From assembly GCF_002844195.1 (NCBI RefSeq), contig NZ_PEND01000004.1:186001-250000 (forward strand): a DNA stretch of 64,000 nt. Direction: 5' to 3'. Of this stretch, positions 51,316-57,995 are shown piece after piece. Within the stretch, counting starts at the first letter, position 1, and the number at the start of each line of letters is the position of its first letter. The translations under genes were made by a program, and so were the position numbers. The notes beneath the pieces were generated by a model. That model did no database searches. It saw only the letters and a list, made by a program, of their open reading frames with translations, and was not told where the DNA came from. The DNA is from Halegenticoccus soli (lineage in GTDB: Archaea; Halobacteriota; Halobacteria; Halobacteriales; Haloferacaceae).

Positions 51316-51729
51316 TCACTCGCTCCGGTAACGCTCGACGAGTTCCGCAAGTACGTGCTTTTCCCGCACGCCGACGATCCGCTCGACGGGGTCGCCGTCG
51401 GCGAACAGCACGAGCGTCGGCACGCTCCGCACCCCGTACTGCGCGGCCAGGTCTCGCCGCGCGTCGATGTTCACCTTCGCGACCGCCGCGGGGGTGTCCC
51501 GCGCGATCTCCGCGACGATCGGTTCGAGCATCTTGCACGGGCCGCACCAGTCGGCGTAGAAGTCCGCGAGCACGACATCGTGATCGTCGAGTAGTTCGGT
51601 CAGGTGATCGGCGCTCCGGACGGGGATCGGCTCGCGGGTCGCCTCGTGCTCGGTTCGCTCCCGCAGGCGAGCCTCCAGCTCCTCGCGCTTGCGACGTCGG
51701 ATCTCATCCAGTTCGTCCGCGTCGGTCAT
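51316..51729 (-). CDS. Thioredoxin with N-terminal charged extension
   Basis: 137 residues from the ATG at 51729. An N-terminal ~35-residue charged helix (DELDEIRRRKREELEARLRE) precedes a thioredoxin fold: VVLADFYADWCGPCKMLEP with active site WCGPC (61-65), the cis-proline in RSVPTLVLF and VGVREKHVLAELV. General thiol-disulphide reductase in the cytoplasm. The helical extension is seen in haloarchaeal thioredoxins; its role is unknown. Confidence 0.92.
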   Translation of the reverse strand: MTDADELDEIRRRKREELEARLRERTEHEATREPIPVRSADHLTELLDDHDVVLADFYADWCGPCKMLEPIVAEIARDTPAAVAKVNIDARRDLAAQYGVRSVPTLVLFADGDPVERIVGVREKHVLAELVERYRSE

Positions 51730-51785
51730 GGGATCGGATACGGACGAGCGCCTCTTAGCCCCGCCGATTCGATCGATTCGGTCGA

Positions 51786-52499: not shown

Positions 52500-53816
52500 T
52501 CAGTCGCGGTCGTACGCGCCCCGCTTTCGGAGTTCGCCCGCCCGCCGGAGCACCGACGGCGTCCGACAGACCCCCGGCGCGCCCGTCACCTGCGGGACCG
52601 TGCAGTTGTTGCAGCTCTCGCAGACGGCGCTCGCCCCCGCCGACGACGCGGCGAGCAGGCGCGCGGGGAGCCGCGGCTCGGCGTAGAACGGACGGGCCAT
52701 GCCGACCATGTCGCAGGCGGCGTCCGCCTCCCCGCCCGCGCCGAGCAGGCGGTCGATCCGGCGGCGCGTCCTGATGCCCCCCTCCGCGAGAACCGGTACG
52801 TCGACCGCTCGCCGGACCGCTCGGCAGAGGTCGGCGTTCCAGGCGGGTTCGAACCCGTACCGGAACGACTCGATCCAGTTGCCGAACGCGACGAGCCGCG
52901 CGCGCCACCGGCTTCCGAACGCCTCGGCGTACCCGGCGCGGAACCCCTCGTCGCGCCACGCCCGCGCCGGGTAGGCCCCGCGGACGACGCTCATGTCCCA
53001 GAACACCGACGTCCGCACGGGAACCAGCGCGTCGTAGCCGATCTCGTCGAGCCGCCGGCAGATCCGGACGGCGTCGGCCGCGGAGAGCCGCCGTCGGACG
53101 AACGGCGGGGCCTCCGTCTCGGCGGGCACCTTCGTCGTCAGCGGCGCGTCGCCGGCGCGGTCGTGGACCTCGTCGCGGACGACCTCCAGAAAGCGGACGC
53201 CGTCGGCGAACTCGTCCGTCCGGCGGTTGTAGAACGGCGAGAGGAACTGCTGGACGACGCCCATGTTCGCGCCGGCCAGGTGGACGACGTCGTACCCGGC
53301 GTCGACGGCGCGCGCCGCGGCGCGGCCGAAGTCGGCGGCGAGGCCGTACACCTCCTCGGTCGACAGGACGCGCGGGCGGTACGAGAGGAACCCCGCGCGG
53401 TCGAGGAGGCGAAGGAACGCGGGCGGCCGCGACACGGCGAGCTGTTCGAGCGCCGGGTGCGCGGCGCGGTAGCCCGCGTGCCACGTCTCCATGCTCCGGA
53501 GGCCGCCGTGCTCCAGCTGGACGGCGATGGTCGACCCGTGCTCGTGGATCCGGTCGGTCAGCCGCGAGAGCCGGGCCACGAAATCGGGGTCGTGGACGCG
53601 CGTCATGTTCGGCGCGGCGCAGCCCCCCTCGCCGCGGACGATCGTCGCCCCCTGGCAGACGAGCCCCGCGCCGGCCGCCGCGGCGGGTTCGAGGTCGGCG
53701 ATCAGCGCGTCGACCGCGCCCTCGCCGTTGCCGGCGCACTCGAGCAGCGGCGCGCGGTAGAGCCGGTTCGGGATCCGCACCCCGCCGATCTCGATCGGGT
53801 CCGCGAGTCGCGTCAT
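52500..53816 (-). CDS. Old Yellow Enzyme-family NADH:flavin oxidoreductase
   Basis: 438 residues, FMN-binding TIM barrel: RIPNRLYRAPLLECAGNGEG, IAVQLEHGGLRS, the phosphate-binding VPVLAEGGIRTRRRIDRLLG, and MVGMARPFYAEPRLPARLL. The C-terminal cysteine cluster (CESCNNCTVPQ... then a Cys in GVCRTP) resembles the 4Fe-4S-binding part of 2,4-dienoyl-CoA-reductase-like OYEs, but the C-terminal NAD-binding domains are absent. The substrate is unknown. Confidence 0.85.
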   Translation of the reverse strand: MTRLADPIEIGGVRIPNRLYRAPLLECAGNGEGAVDALIADLEPAAAAGAGLVCQGATIVRGEGGCAAPNMTRVHDPDFVARLSRLTDRIHEHGSTIAVQLEHGGLRSMETWHAGYRAAHPALEQLAVSRPPAFLRLLDRAGFLSYRPRVLSTEEVYGLAADFGRAAARAVDAGYDVVHLAGANMGVVQQFLSPFYNRRTDEFADGVRFLEVVRDEVHDRAGDAPLTTKVPAETEAPPFVRRRLSAADAVRICRRLDEIGYDALVPVRTSVFWDMSVVRGAYPARAWRDEGFRAGYAEAFGSRWRARLVAFGNWIESFRYGFEPAWNADLCRAVRRAVDVPVLAEGGIRTRRRIDRLLGAGGEADAACDMVGMARPFYAEPRLPARLLAASSAGASAVCESCNNCTVPQVTGAPGVCRTPSVLRRAGELRKRGAYDRD

Positions 53817-54596: not shown

Positions 54597-55316
54597 TCAC
54601 GCCGGTCCACTCGACGATCGAACCCGTTCGAGACCGTCGAACACCGTCCGCAGGCGCGATTCGAGCGGCCCGGCCTTGTCGAGCTGCGCGCGGATCGTCG
54701 CGGCGTTCTGCACGTACCGACCCTCCGAGAGGTCCTCGTCTGCGTTTCGGAGGAGCTCCTCGACGGTCTCGGGCGAGGATTCGAGGTGGAACTGGAGGCC
54801 GACGACCCGGTCGTCGAAGACGAACGCCTGGTTCGGACAGGCGTCGGTTCCGGCCGCGCGCGTCGCGCCCGCCGGCAGGTCGAACGTCTCGCCGTGCCAG
54901 TGGAACGCGTCGTACTCGTCGCCCAGGGGGGCAAACGGCGGCAGGTCGGCCGCTTCCGGCGTTGCCTCGACCGGGAGCCAGCCGATCTCGCGGCGCTCGG
55001 CCTCGTACACCTCGGCCCCGAGAACCTCGGCGATCAGCTGCGATCCGAGACAGATCCCCACGACCGTCTTCCCGGCGTCGATCGCGTCCCGCACGAGCGC
55101 CTTCTCGTCGGCGAGCCAGGGGTACTCGGCCTCGTCGCGGACGCTCATCGGCCCGCCCAGGACGATCAGCCAGTCGAAGTCGGCAACCGATGGGAGGGAG
55201 TCGCCGTCGAACAGGCGCGTCCGGGTCAGTTCGTGACCGCGGTCGACCGCCCAGCGCTCGATCGTCCCCGGCCCTTCGAACGAGACGTGCTGGACGCAGC
55301 GGACCCGGAGCGTCAC
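54597..55316 (-). CDS. Class I glutamine amidotransferase-like protein
   Basis: 239 residues from the GTG at 55316, overlapping the stop of the protoglobin gene by four bases. GATase fold with a complete catalytic triad: C89 in GICLGSQLIAEVLGA, H177 and E179 in GLQFHLESSP. Also LIVLGGPMSVRDEAEYPWL near the N-terminus. It has no synthase domain, so it resembles stand-alone GMP-synthase-like amidotransferases; an acceptor protein is not apparent. Coupling to protoglobin is unusual. Confidence 0.87.
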   Translation of the reverse strand: MTLRVRCVQHVSFEGPGTIERWAVDRGHELTRTRLFDGDSLPSVADFDWLIVLGGPMSVRDEAEYPWLADEKALVRDAIDAGKTVVGICLGSQLIAEVLGAEVYEAERREIGWLPVEATPEAADLPPFAPLGDEYDAFHWHGETFDLPAGATRAAGTDACPNQAFVFDDRVVGLQFHLESSPETVEELLRNADEDLSEGRYVQNAATIRAQLDKAGPLESRLRTVFDGLERVRSSSGPA

Positions 55317-55903
55317 CAGTCCCCCTCTTTCATGTAGGGATAGCTCCAGAGGGCGACCTGGAGCGTGACCGACTTGAACCACGCGTGGTACATCTCGTCG
55401 ACCTCCCCGGGCGAGTGATCCCCCGCTTCGAGGAACTCGCGGATCGTCGCCGTGATCGGATAGACGAACGCGATCACGTACCGGAGGTCGATGTTCGGCA
55501 CGGAGTCGACCCGGTCGGTTTGGTTCTTTTTCGTCCGGCGGTGCCTGCGGCCGATCTCGAACTGGTAGTTCAGCCAGTCCTGATCGTACGGGGCGTCACA
55601 CGTGTCGCGGATCCACTGGCCGAAGCGCTCGCGCACCCGGTCGAGGTACTCCTCGTCGGGCTCGCCGGCGGGCCCGGCGAAGTAGCGGAGAAGGAATTCG
55701 TGGTCGGCGACGAAGCCGTACCAGAGGTCGAGGATCTCGTCGATCTGCGGTTCGAGGACTTCGCCCGCCCGCCGGAGCGCGCGCTCGTCGGCCTCCGTGA
55801 ACATGACCGTCCGCTTCAGCCGCTCGAACTCGTCCGCGTCGATCGGCGCTTCGGGGACGGACTCGTCGCCGTACGTGTATCCCGGCAGTTGTTGGTCCGC
55901 CAT
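55313..55903 (-). CDS. Protoglobin (heme-binding gas sensor/dioxygenase)
   Basis: 196-residue globin-fold protein of the protoglobin family. Diagnostic elements: PGYTYGDESVPEAPIDADEF at the N-terminus, TEADERALRRAGEVLEPQ, and YQFEIGRRHRRTKKNQTD with the proximal heme ligand H121. The C-terminal helix is VDEMYHAWFKSVTLQVALWS. There is no kinase, methyl-acceptor or cyclase domain, so it is a single-domain protoglobin, likely binding O2, CO or NO. It is the first gene of a two-gene transcript with the amidotransferase and is divergent from an HxlR regulator. Confidence 0.9.
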   Translation of the reverse strand: MADQQLPGYTYGDESVPEAPIDADEFERLKRTVMFTEADERALRRAGEVLEPQIDEILDLWYGFVADHEFLLRYFAGPAGEPDEEYLDRVRERFGQWIRDTCDAPYDQDWLNYQFEIGRRHRRTKKNQTDRVDSVPNIDLRYVIAFVYPITATIREFLEAGDHSPGEVDEMYHAWFKSVTLQVALWSYPYMKEGDW

Positions 55904-55950
55904 GGCGTATCACCTACCTCACCGTACGCGGGTCGGCGCGGTAAAGCTGG

Positions 55951-55994
55951 TAGTAATGTTGAACTTAGTAGCTCCACTACGGTGAACCAACTAC
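55951..55994. promoter_or_regulatory. Symmetric operator-like region between protoglobin and HxlR genes
   Basis: The core GTAG-CTCCA-CTAC lies at 55968-55980, flanked at similar distances by further TAGTA (55951-55955) and CTACG (55990-55994) half-sites, so the whole region is roughly dyad-symmetric. It lies just upstream of the HxlR ATG (55999) and ~50 bases upstream of the protoglobin start. It is the natural candidate for an HxlR binding site controlling both directions. Confidence 0.5.
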
Positions 55995-55998
55995 GCGC

Positions 55999-56301
55999 AT
56001 GGGAACGACAGACGCGGAGTGGGGTGGGATCTGGGAGGTGCTCGGCTGTAAGTGGACGTTCCACATCCTGCGGTTCCTCTCGACGCGCCCCGCCCAGTTC
56101 AATCAGATCAAAAACGCGATCGAGGGGCTGCCGGCGAGCACGCTCTCGACCCGGCTGAAGAGCTTACGGGAGGAAAACCTCGTCTCGCGGTCGGTGGCGG
56201 ACTCGACGCCGCCGACCGTCACCTACGCGCTCACCGAGAAGGGCGAAGAGCTTGCCGAGATAATCGCCCGGATCGAGGAGCTCGAACGGCGGTACGAGTG
56301 A
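55999..56301 (+). CDS. HxlR-family transcriptional regulator
   Basis: 100 residues: a winged helix of the HxlR/MarR-like family with the typical VLGCKWTFHILRFLSTRPAQ, FNQIKNAIEGLPASTLSTRL and TYALTEKGEELAEI. The single N-terminal cysteine (in GCKW) sits at the position used for redox or electrophile sensing in several HxlR members. Divergent from the protoglobin operon, which it probably regulates. Confidence 0.85.
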   Translation: MGTTDAEWGGIWEVLGCKWTFHILRFLSTRPAQFNQIKNAIEGLPASTLSTRLKSLREENLVSRSVADSTPPTVTYALTEKGEELAEIIARIEELERRYE

Positions 56302-56305
56302 TCGA

Positions 56306-56701
56306 CTACCGACGCGCCCGCTCGTGTTCGAGAAGCCGCCGCTTCAGCGCCACCCCCTCCTCGCCGCCCGCCGAGTACCCGCCGAGCGAGTTCGCCCCGA
56401 CGATCCGGTGGCACGGGACGACGATCGGAACGGGGTTCCGCCCGCACGCCTGCCCCACCGCGACCGGCGCCGTGTCCAGTTCCGCGGCCACCTCGCCGTA
56501 GGTGCGAGTCTCACCGTACGGAATGCGGCGCATGCGCGCCATCACCCGTCCGGTCAGCCCGCCGGGGGCCGCGACGGCGAGATCGAAGTCCGTCCGTTCG
56601 CCCCGCTCGTACGCGGTAATCTGCCGACGGATCGCCTCCGGCGGTTCCTCGACGACCGATTCGTCGATCTCCACCTCGGTTCCGAGTATCTCGACGAGCA
56701 T
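56306..56701 (-). CDS. ogt: O6-methylguanine-DNA methyltransferase family protein
   Basis: 131 residues. MGMT/ATL active-site motif VPCHRIVGANSLGGYSAG with acceptor cysteine C97, preceded by the helix-turn-helix region RIPYGETRTYGEVAAELDTA and GQACGRNP. Short, without a long N-terminal domain. Repairs O6-alkylguanine directly. Four bases after alkA on the same strand, so the pair is an alkylation-repair operon. Confidence 0.92.
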   Translation of the reverse strand: MLVEILGTEVEIDESVVEEPPEAIRRQITAYERGERTDFDLAVAAPGGLTGRVMARMRRIPYGETRTYGEVAAELDTAPVAVGQACGRNPVPIVVPCHRIVGANSLGGYSAGGEEGVALKRRLLEHERARR

Positions 56702-56705
56702 CGTA

Positions 56706-57302
56706 TCACGCCGACTTTTTCGCGGAGTCGCGCGCCCGCGCGTCGTCGTACGCGTGCCAGACGTAGAGGCAGGCGACGCTCCGGTAGGGCCGCCACGCCT
56801 TCGCGCGTTCGACCATCTCCTCGCGGCTCATCCCCTCCCCGTAGAGGTGCCGCATCCCGTTCCGGATGCCGAGGTCCTCGACCGGGAACACGTCCTCACG
56901 GCCGAGTCCGAACATGAGGAACGTCTTCGCGGTCCACGCGCCCACGCCGCGGATCGCGGTCAGTTCGTCGACGACCTCCTCGTCGGTCATCCCTTCGAAC
57001 GTCGCGCGCGTCAGCCCCCGATCGCGGAAGGCGCGGGCCGCGTTCCGCACGTACTCAATCTTCTGTCCGGACAGCCCGGCCTCCCGGAGCGATTCGTCGT
57101 CCGCCCGGATGAGGGACTCGGGGGTGATCTCGTGGCGGGCGAACAGCCGCTCGCGGATCGAGCTCGCGGCGGCGGTCGACAGCTGCTGGTTGACGATCGA
57201 GACGACGAGCCGTTCGAACGGCTCGTCGGCCGCCGAGAGTTCGAGCGGACCGTGAGCCTCGACGATCTCGGCGAGCACCGGATCGTTTCGGAGAGGTTGC
57301 AT
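56706..57302 (-). CDS. alkA: DNA-3-methyladenine glycosylase (AlkA-like, HhH-GPD)
   Basis: 198 residues from the ATG at 57302. HhH-GPD superfamily: FERLVVSIVNQQLSTAAASS, the helix-hairpin-helix ELTAIRGVGAWTAKTFLMFG, then DVFPVEDLGIRNGM with the catalytic aspartate. There is no iron-sulfur loop, so it is of the AlkA type and not the Nth/MutY type. Removes alkylated bases; upstream of ogt in one transcript. Confidence 0.92.
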   Translation of the reverse strand: MQPLRNDPVLAEIVEAHGPLELSAADEPFERLVVSIVNQQLSTAAASSIRERLFARHEITPESLIRADDESLREAGLSGQKIEYVRNAARAFRDRGLTRATFEGMTDEEVVDELTAIRGVGAWTAKTFLMFGLGREDVFPVEDLGIRNGMRHLYGEGMSREEMVERAKAWRPYRSVACLYVWHAYDDARARDSAKKSA

Positions 57303-57491
57303 TGATCGGGGATAGAGAGGCCCGACGGCGTCAAAAACGTGCGCCAAGCGGGGCGGAAGTGAACTAGCGACGAACGTCGGAGGCCTCGTTCGTCCCACCC
57401 CTGACCGACGGTGACGGTGGGAAGGGAGTTCCCGACCAGCGCTGGGAATGGACAGTGCCGGGAATGGATGTCCCCGACCTCGACGGTTGGT

Positions 57492-57995
57492 TCAGGCGGT
57501 TTCCTCCGCAACTCGCCCGATAATCTCGTACTCCTCGCCGCTGTACGCGATGAACCGGACGTCTTCGAGCGAGCGCGGCTCGAAGTCGCGGATCTCCTCG
57601 CAGATGAGGCGCGCGCCCTCTTCCAGCGGGAACCCGGCGACCCCGCAGCCGAGCGCCGGGAGGACGAGCGACCGGCAGCCGCGCTCGTCGGCGGCCGCGA
57701 GCGCGCTGCGGGTCGCCTCGCGGATGCTCTCCTCGGTCGCCTGCCCGTCGCCGTAGTGCGGCATGGCCGCGGCGTGGACGACGTATTCCGCGTCGAGCTC
57801 GTAGGCGTCCGTGACGGCCGCCTCGCCGAGATCGACCGGACCCTTCTCCATCGCCTCCTCGTTTATCGGCCCGCCCGCCGCGCGGCGGAGCGCGCCCGCG
57901 ACCCCCGAGCCCATCCGGAGGCTCGTTCCCGCGGCGTTGACGAGCGCGTCGGCCTCCTGTTCGGCGATGTCTCCCTGGATCACCGTGAATTTCAT
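57492..57995 (-). CDS. Macro-domain protein (ADP-ribose-related hydrolase)
   Basis: 167 residues, the whole protein being one macro domain: KFTVIQGDIAEQEADALVNA, AGTSLRMGSGVAGALRRAAG (glycine-rich binding loop), EYVVHAAAMPHYGDGQ, and RSLVLPALGCGVAGFPLEEG. It probably binds or deacylates ADP-ribose derivatives. Near the alkylation-repair genes but with its own promoter. Confidence 0.92.
   Translation of the reverse strand: MKFTVIQGDIAEQEADALVNAAGTSLRMGSGVAGALRRAAGGPINEEAMEKGPVDLGEAAVTDAYELDAEYVVHAAAMPHYGDGQATEESIREATRSALAAADERGCRSLVLPALGCGVAGFPLEEGARLICEEIRDFEPRSLEDVRFIAYSGEEYEIIGRVAEETA

Follow-up and report, generated by a model that had tools for sequence, protein, structure and literature searches.

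Introduction

In a 64,000-nt stretch of the genome of the haloarchaeon Halegenticoccus soli (hereafter the window), a regulator of the HxlR family stands opposite a protoglobin (Pgb) and a class I glutamine amidotransferase (GATase), and each member of this trio has described relatives. The protoglobin of Methanosarcina acetivorans (MaPgb; structure 2veb) is like the window Pgb in its presumed proximal His and in a WYGFV segment, and we know of no tie between MaPgb and an HxlR regulator or a GATase. Nitrite-reductase and peroxynitrite-isomerase activities have been described for MaPgb in vitro (PMC4020757), and globins have been argued to act as nitric oxide (NO) dioxygenases, a point that is unsettled for MaPgb (PMC3820574). 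In energised Nitrosococcus oceani a Pgb is among the raised genes, alongside those for NO reductase, which is suggestive only (PMC3772326), while a paper on haloarchaeal denitrification treats cyanoglobins and, in the portion of its text available, mentions protoglobin in one reference title only (PMC11218638).

The regulator belongs to the HxlR/DUF24 family together with YodB, QsrR and HxlR, which are small dimeric thiol-sensing regulators. HxlR of Bacillus subtilis senses formaldehyde via Cys11, with Lys13 nearby, and other members sense electrophiles by Cys; the sensing Cys of these known proteins is N-terminal (PMC7835342), whereas the window regulator has its Cys at the GGKW position. OxsR of Haloferax volcanii, a haloarchaeal winged-helix thiol switch with a single essential conserved Cys, resembles the window regulator in its single-domain winged helix and conserved Cys, and its site lies beside the B recognition element (BRE) and TATA box (PMC9426492). 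It differs in being a TrmB-family protein with a wide regulon and a CG-rich motif, whereas the window regulator is of the HxlR family and has one exact site per genome.

Two stand-alone enzymes are comparable to the window GATase. DnfC of direct ammonia oxidation (Dirammox) is likewise a stand-alone class I GATase adjoining redox enzymes, and dnfABC gives Escherichia coli the conversion of ammonia to hydroxylamine and N2, with the part of DnfC itself described as unclear (PMC9478400). Gamma-glutamyl peptidase 1 (GGP1) of Arabidopsis, a plant glutathione-conjugate enzyme that cleaves gamma-glutamyl bonds, has a class I GATase fold that stands alone. The component families are already known, and a thiol-switch regulator beside its stress genes is a known kind of arrangement; a search of the open-access literature found no description of the HxlR-Pgb-GATase combination.

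Results

A Conserved Cysteine in the HxlR Regulator

We read the trio as a thiol-switch unit, controlled from one operator and directed against reactive nitrogen and oxygen species, with a probability of about 0.5; the HxlR-Pgb part of this reading is rated higher, and the part concerning the GATase substrate lower. Open reading frames with Pfam matches were found for all three genes at the positions and strands given by the initial annotation, and the overlap of the GATase GTG start with the Pgb stop in four bases (GTGA), the catalytic triad, the Pgb His and the single HxlR Cys were recovered where it had placed them (Table 1).

The regulator passed the PF01638 cut-off (71.1 bits against 20.8), and its sequence matched 5hs7 (E 1.4e-9), 4hqm and 7bze, structures from the group of YodB, QsrR and HxlR. 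Its only Cys, C17, aligned with a Gly in the GGKW of B. subtilis HxlR, and it has no N-terminal Cys ahead of the DNA-binding domain, so that a sensor of the Cys11 type was rejected. The alignment revealed a Cys at the C17 position, in a C-K-W motif, in 12 of 12 HxlRs divergent to a Pgb or a GATase, from haloarchaea, Myxococcota, Armatimonadota, Cyanobacteriota and Planctomycetota (five phyla); these were picked by similarity to the window HxlR and are mutually related, and L107, a near copy of L087, was not counted. In 9 of the 12 it is the lone Cys of the aligned domain. The same position held no Cys in any of 31 sampled haloarchaeal HxlRs (a sample of 32 best family hits, four of them from the genome of the window, less L166, which was unaligned), two of which, L154 and L156, had a Cys one position earlier. 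The difference between linked and sampled regulators corresponds to a Fisher p of 6.5e-11, with relatedness ignored. The class of HxlRs with Cys17 in C-K-W, together with its operator, looks new.

Two further regulators were observed. The HxlR of the bacterial trio described below (L008:4295-4873, minus strand) is a tandem of two HxlR domains, with C-K-W in each. L179 (genome G166) is a C-K-W HxlR with no adjoining Pgb or GATase, and upstream of it lies a clear palindrome, GTACTACC-N9-GGGTAGTAC, with a similar half-site.

A Direct-Repeat Operator in the Shared Promoter

The initial annotation had described a dyad-symmetric run of half-sites in the shared promoter. Five homologous promoters, HxlR/Pgb or HxlR/GATase (window, L085, L087, L091 and L106), were compared, and 15 columns of a 23-bp block were invariant, while 500 dinucleotide-shuffled sets treated by the same procedure gave at most 6 and none (0/500) reached 15; because the five promoter regions are homologous, the shuffles show conservation and not its cause. 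Within the block, ACT(A/G) half-sites occur twice in direct orientation, 15 bp apart with TTCA in between, and a conserved TTTA adjoins the block. Over the whole gap 27 columns were invariant, 20 of them within a 37-column stretch that includes the TTTA and 7 in the remaining 57. The GTAG/CTAC inverted elements differed, by eye, in spacing among the five promoters, and a repeat search of 55900-56010 gave repeats of 6-8 nt only. The run of ACTA/TAGT half-sites is present, but the conserved element is a direct-repeat block, which replaces the dyad as the operator. Sites of YodB are TACT/AGTA-like.

The exact core of this block (Table 1) was found in the window, L085, L087, L091, L106 and L107, in all cases with a close HxlR, and the window copy is the sole exact site in the 4.6-Mb genome. 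G000, G210, G319 and G394 have a single copy each, which lies at the divergon, and exact copies were absent from G008, G225, G265 and G350. When one mismatch was allowed, four extra sites appeared in two of these eight genomes and a backwards control also gave four; a regulon beyond the divergon was rejected on these counts. Where this HxlR is lacking, the 170 bases upstream of Pgb (16 haloarchaeal genes) matched the core with 4-7 mismatches at best, and with the more distant HxlRs of L110, L112 and L115 the core had 3 mismatches and the layout was unchanged. The HxlR-Pgb gap of L008 contains GTTACT-N8-AGTAAC. The initial annotation had further proposed a redox- or gas-responsive module, and the Cys conservation of linked HxlRs, together with an exact operator that is present with the close HxlR and lacking upstream of the 16 Pgbs without it, bears out the part of this idea that assigns the regulator to Pgb and GATase.

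For OxsR, sites 5' of BRE/TATA are associated with activation and sites 3' with repression (PMC9426492). The window operator lies just 5' of the candidate TATA-like element of Pgb, and by analogy with this rule HxlR may activate Pgb.

Table 1. Features of the HxlR-Pgb-GATase locus and of nearby genes in the window.
Feature	Position	Strand	Evidence
HxlR-family winged-helix regulator, 100 aa	55999..56301	+	PF01638 E 7.1e-20; sole Cys C17 in G-C-K-W motif
Single-domain protoglobin (Pgb), 196 aa	55313..55903	-	PF11563 E 4.5e-37; 2veb E 3.4e-78; H121
Stand-alone class I GATase, 239 aa	54597..55316	-	PF00117 E 9.6e-19; triad C89-H177-E179; GTG start
Conserved operator block AGCTACTAAGTTCAACATTACTA	55951..55973	-	15/23 columns invariant in five promoters
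Searched 20-bp core ACT-N3-TTCA-N3-TTACTAC	55950-55969	-	14 specified bases
TTTAC, candidate TATA-like element of the Pgb-GATase transcript (inferred)	55941..55945	-	TTTA invariant in five promoters
TTAGTA, candidate TATA-like element of HxlR, within the operator (inferred)	55965..55970	+	position, 28 nt before ATG
O6-methylguanine methyltransferase domain gene, then HhH-GPD DNA glycosylase gene	56306-57398	-
Thioredoxin gene	51316-51762	-
Oxidored_FMN (old yellow enzyme type) gene	52500-53816	-
Macro-domain gene	57492-57995	-

Recurrence of the Trio and a Deletion in Haloarcula litorea

Among 391 genomes of the class, 20 contained a Pgb at E<=1e-40 (21 matches) and 4 a GATase at E<=1e-45. Seven of the 21 Pgb matches have a divergent HxlR (window, L097, L106, L107, L110, L112 and L115), and HxlRs at least 70% identical to that of the window occurred in 3 more of the 391 genomes, opposite a Pgb in all 3. 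Pgb and GATase were adjacent in the window alone, and these counts rule out the trio as a common haloarchaeal unit. Plasmid records showed HxlR-Pgb in Halalkalicoccus jeotgali and in Natrinema zhouii, where hemL and a MOSC gene follow, and a Pgb without regulator in Halocatena salina.

In a scan of bacterial and archaeal genomes, HxlR was divergent to Pgb in 4 of 80 loci (L008, L013, L028 and L032). One of them, L008, is a contig of a bacterial metagenome-assembled genome that bears the title Deltaproteobacteria and is assigned to Myxococcota; its HxlR, Pgb and GATase follow the order and orientation of the window. A plasmid of Acaryochloris marina has Pgb followed by GATase with no HxlR. The overlap of Pgb and GATase was seen in the window only, the gap being 154 nt in L008 and 256 nt in L090. 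The linkage of the two genes recurs outside this strain; it is rare but not unique, and the Pgb-GATase link looks new. Cyanobacteria were rejected as a source of further trios, since a Pgb at E<=1e-40 was found in 1 of 292 genomes, that of L028; in this genome the Pgb has an in-frame stop, and pieces of the GATase lie in two frames at a contig end about 2 kb on.

A plasmid of Haloarcula litorea carries a GATase 61.9% identical to that of the window opposite a close HxlR, with no Pgb within the 12.6 kb read. The annotated start of this GATase, SNEPIPG, is like SNEPVPG of N. zhouii and the starts of other haloarchaeal Pgbs, and GATase sequence runs from GHDLTGTRL on. Of the first 24 bases of the gene, 19 agree with the N. 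zhouii Pgb start and 7 with the window GATase, and past the junction 39 of 51 bases match GATase and 14 match Pgb. The GATase tree placed the window and H. litorea as sisters (bootstrap 93; Shimodaira-Hasegawa-like approximate likelihood ratio test (SH-aLRT) 96), just under the starred support level. The fused frame is read as the scar of a deleted trio: on the simplest reading of these sequences, an internal deletion would have taken most of Pgb and the first GATase codons and kept HxlR, the operator and an open GATase frame, and the trio was most likely once present in H. litorea. Together with L008 and Acaryochloris, this favours the linkage part of the proposed module; we propose that the unit is patchily spread, often on plasmids.

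These linkage data also bear on two alternatives. The HxlR-Pgb pair might be the real unit and the GATase a passenger without functional link to Pgb, in keeping with HxlR-Pgb being far commoner (7/21 haloarchaeal Pgb matches vs 1/21 with GATase). We consider this improbable, given the translational overlap of GATase with Pgb, the independent Pgb-GATase links in L008 and Acaryochloris, and a GATase frame in H. litorea that is still open under the same operator after loss of Pgb. It is also conceivable that the three genes are chance neighbours from common families, with no joint function or control, as all three families are widespread and the four-base overlap occurs in this genome only. An operator conserved far above shuffles and absent where HxlR is absent, the Cys conservation, a gene order shared with the distant bacterium L008 and the deletion scar in H. 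litorea make mere chance very improbable.

The Protoglobin and Its Neighbourhoods

The window Pgb passed PF11563 (127.9 bits, cut-off 25) and was matched full-length by MaPgb (residues 2-196). H121 aligned to H120 of 2veb, which we take to be the proximal His, and W61, Y62 and C102 are also common to, or aligned with, MaPgb pocket positions. Judged by sequence, the window Pgb is a close relative of the Methanosarcina protoglobin, and as a member of its family it is predicted to bind heme, O2, CO and NO. In a quick tree with SH-aLRT support only, where a deposited mutant chain represents MaPgb, the haloarchaeal Pgbs formed a single clade (23 rows, SH-aLRT 99) nested among bacterial Pgbs, with MaPgb apart from it. 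The L008 Pgb clustered with MaPgb (SH-aLRT 80) and not with the haloarchaeal clade, and for this reason its GATase link was not inherited along the Pgb branch of the window.

Neighbour genes of other Pgbs were taken as longest-ORF calls within 900 bp of Pgb, and Pfam was run on 150 of the 169 proteins so obtained, which came from the 57 loci left once 22 near-duplicates had been dropped. Among the 150 proteins, MarR_2 was found in 23, DUF2024 in 14, HxlR in 4, Ferritin in 3, and AhpC-TSA and Glutaredoxin in 2 each, out of 143 families in all. Genes of thiol, peroxide and NO stress are found near bacterial Pgbs: hmp (flavohemoglobin), catalase and a hexameric tyrosine-coordinated heme protein (HTHP) in Hymenobacter, yghU in Agarilytica, a redoxin in L014 and a nitroreductase in L017. 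In L107 an incomplete peroxidase gene, which runs off the end of the locus, lies next to HxlR. At L030:6086-7318 a thioredoxin-like N-terminal part and a MarR regulator share one frame beside Pgb, with neighbouring frames in L029 and L041.

DUF2024, a small Cys-containing protein of no known function, recurs beside bacterial Pgbs (L020, L033, L038 and others; 23 of 106 Pgb loci have its gene in the flank), usually with a MarR-type regulator that bears a C-terminal cysteine cluster. DUF2024 and this regulator constitute a second unexplained Pgb module.

The Amidotransferase

The GATase passed PF00117 (68.2 bits, cut-off 22.8), and C89 was invariant and H177 nearly invariant across 15 relatives; the sequence indicates that the Cys-His-Glu triad is intact and that the enzyme probably cuts glutamine-like bonds. 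The best NCBIfam model was PRK07053 (199.4 bits, below its cut-off of 250), as it was, likewise below cut-off, for eight relatives, while GMP synthase subunit A was rejected (44.5 bits against the PRK00758 cut-off of 198). A sequence search of solved structures gave 9xfs, a glutamine amidotransferase, as best match (E 4.1e-39), and DnfC (8khs) was absent from the matches of that search. An AlphaFold model built from 11 sequences (mean predicted local distance difference test score 91.1) had as top structural matches 3l7n (Z 33.1), DnfC 8khs (32.3, over 227 residues at 35% identity), 1o1y (31.9), 3m3p (31.8) and 7d54 (28.8), of which the first four are near ties. GGP1 (9k7i-9k7l) came next at Z 25.6 over 226 residues, with 16-17% identity, a likeness of fold only, and synthase GATase subunits scored lower, at about 21. 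On this model, the window enzyme is best read as a putative stand-alone gamma-glutamyl hydrolase that resembles DnfC and GGP1.

In Desulfosarcina ovata the GATase (43% identical) belongs to a plasmid island that also encodes NO reductase, NorR, FprA and Hcp, and the DnfC fold and this island are two leads, from separate places, toward oxidised nitrogen. Other relatives occur in unrelated settings, such as an Aeromonas plasmid where the gene is flanked by transposases. These leads would suit a Dirammox-like system in which Pgb and GATase act sequentially on hydroxylamine or NO, the GATase supplying or removing gamma-glutamyl-bound nitrogen and Pgb carrying out a redox step; DnfC is, moreover, cited as essential for Dirammox in strain JQ135 (PMC9478400). 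However, DnfC is partnered by a diiron hydroxylamine oxidase and a flavin reductase, and neither dnfA (diiron oxygenase) nor dnfB (reductase) was found in a Pfam scan of ten neighbour genes in the window, the rest of the genome being unsearched. In vitro DnfC was dispensable and its role is described as unclear (PMC9478400), and a shared fold does not give function, as 3l7n and 1o1y, with no known function, score equally. We consider a Dirammox-like role improbable.

A more daring version, which we hold equally doubtful, treats Pgb and GATase as successive enzymes, in which GATase would make or cut a gamma-glutamyl-N species such as gamma-glutamyl hydroxamate and the Pgb heme would oxidise or reduce the released nitrogen, a heme-based parallel to DnfA-DnfC under the control of a novel Cys17 HxlR class that archaea and bacteria share. 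Glutamine synthetase and GATases are able to form gamma-glutamyl hydroxamate, and engineered protoglobins perform nitrene transfer from hydroxylamine.

Genes Around the Trio

An alkylation-repair pair adjoins HxlR, and thioredoxin, Oxidored_FMN and macro-domain genes lie within a few kb of the trio (Table 1). Pgb and GATase were unmatched by PADLOC, which gave only weak Csa3/CARF matches for HxlR (best E 9.7e-5), and 50,697 phage records contained no Pgb match at E<=1e-5; phage cargo or a defence gene was rejected on this basis.

Discussion

Under the thiol-switch reading, HxlR would bind the conserved operator between the two promoters, and NO, peroxynitrite, peroxide or an electrophile would modify Cys17 and so alter DNA binding, a change that would switch Pgb and GATase together; the inducing signal may be O2, NO or another, and the two enzymes might also be in contact. 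The Pgb heme would remove or interconvert reactive nitrogen and oxygen species, and the in vitro activities of MaPgb fit Pgb as an NO, peroxynitrite or peroxide heme enzyme. The GATase, acting alone, would hydrolyse the gamma-glutamyl amide in a stress by-product, the likeliest substrate being a gamma-glutamyl thiol adduct or a gamma-glutamyl-N compound. The haloarchaeal thiol is gamma-glutamylcysteine (PMC7278568), and the genome of the window has a strong GCS2 ligase-family hit (E 2.4e-77).

The same genes could instead form a unit for aldehyde or electrophile detoxification. HxlR would then respond to formaldehyde or a different electrophile rather than to NO or peroxide, gamma-glutamyl thiol conjugates would be recycled by GATase, and the part of Pgb would be secondary. 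Known HxlR sensors react by Cys, in B. subtilis with a nearby Lys (PMC7835342), and the window has C17-K18; the Oxidored_FMN enzyme and the alkylation-repair genes are nearby, and the GATase model resembles GGP1. However, Cys11 and Lys13 of B. subtilis HxlR are located elsewhere, C17 aligning with the Gly of GGKW, the repair genes as conserved neighbours are an assumption, and a gas-binding globin is ill-suited to aldehyde detoxification. We regard this alternative as unlikely.

Several observations weigh against the thiol-switch reading. Most bacterial Pgbs seen have either a different regulator (MarR-type in 42 of 106 loci) or no regulator at all, and in haloarchaea 14 of 21 Pgb matches have no HxlR opposite and only that of the window has an adjacent GATase. 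Two Pgb genes opposite a C-K-W HxlR contain in-frame stops, TAG in L106 (G319) and TGA in the genome of L028 (L028/L141); these genes may be decaying, or the assembly may be wrong. Cys17 occupies another position than the known sensing Cys of the family, a second domain Cys is present in the HxlRs of L013, L085 and L112, and of 29 nearer HxlRs that lack a link to Pgb or GATase, three also have Cys17 (L179; L171, which carries C-E-W; and L170, a broken copy of the window-type HxlR). From 12/12 in linked against 3/29 in nearer unlinked regulators, it follows that Cys17 tracks the link and is not exclusive to it. As for the GATase, any gamma-glutamyl substrate is putative, and DnfC was without effect on hydroxylamine oxidation by DnfA in vitro (PMC9478400).

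Protoglobins are well-studied heme proteins and engineering scaffolds, yet what MaPgb does biologically is described as not yet known (PMC3680402). A conserved-Cys regulator opposite Pgb, with one operator per genome, offers a direct handle on the Pgb-inducing signal in genetically tractable haloarchaea. The Cys17 (C-K-W) class would give this family, in which the known sensors rely on a different cysteine, a new and testable site of thiol sensing, and the repeated association with an enzyme like DnfC and GGP1 points to a candidate substrate class for both Pgb and GATase.

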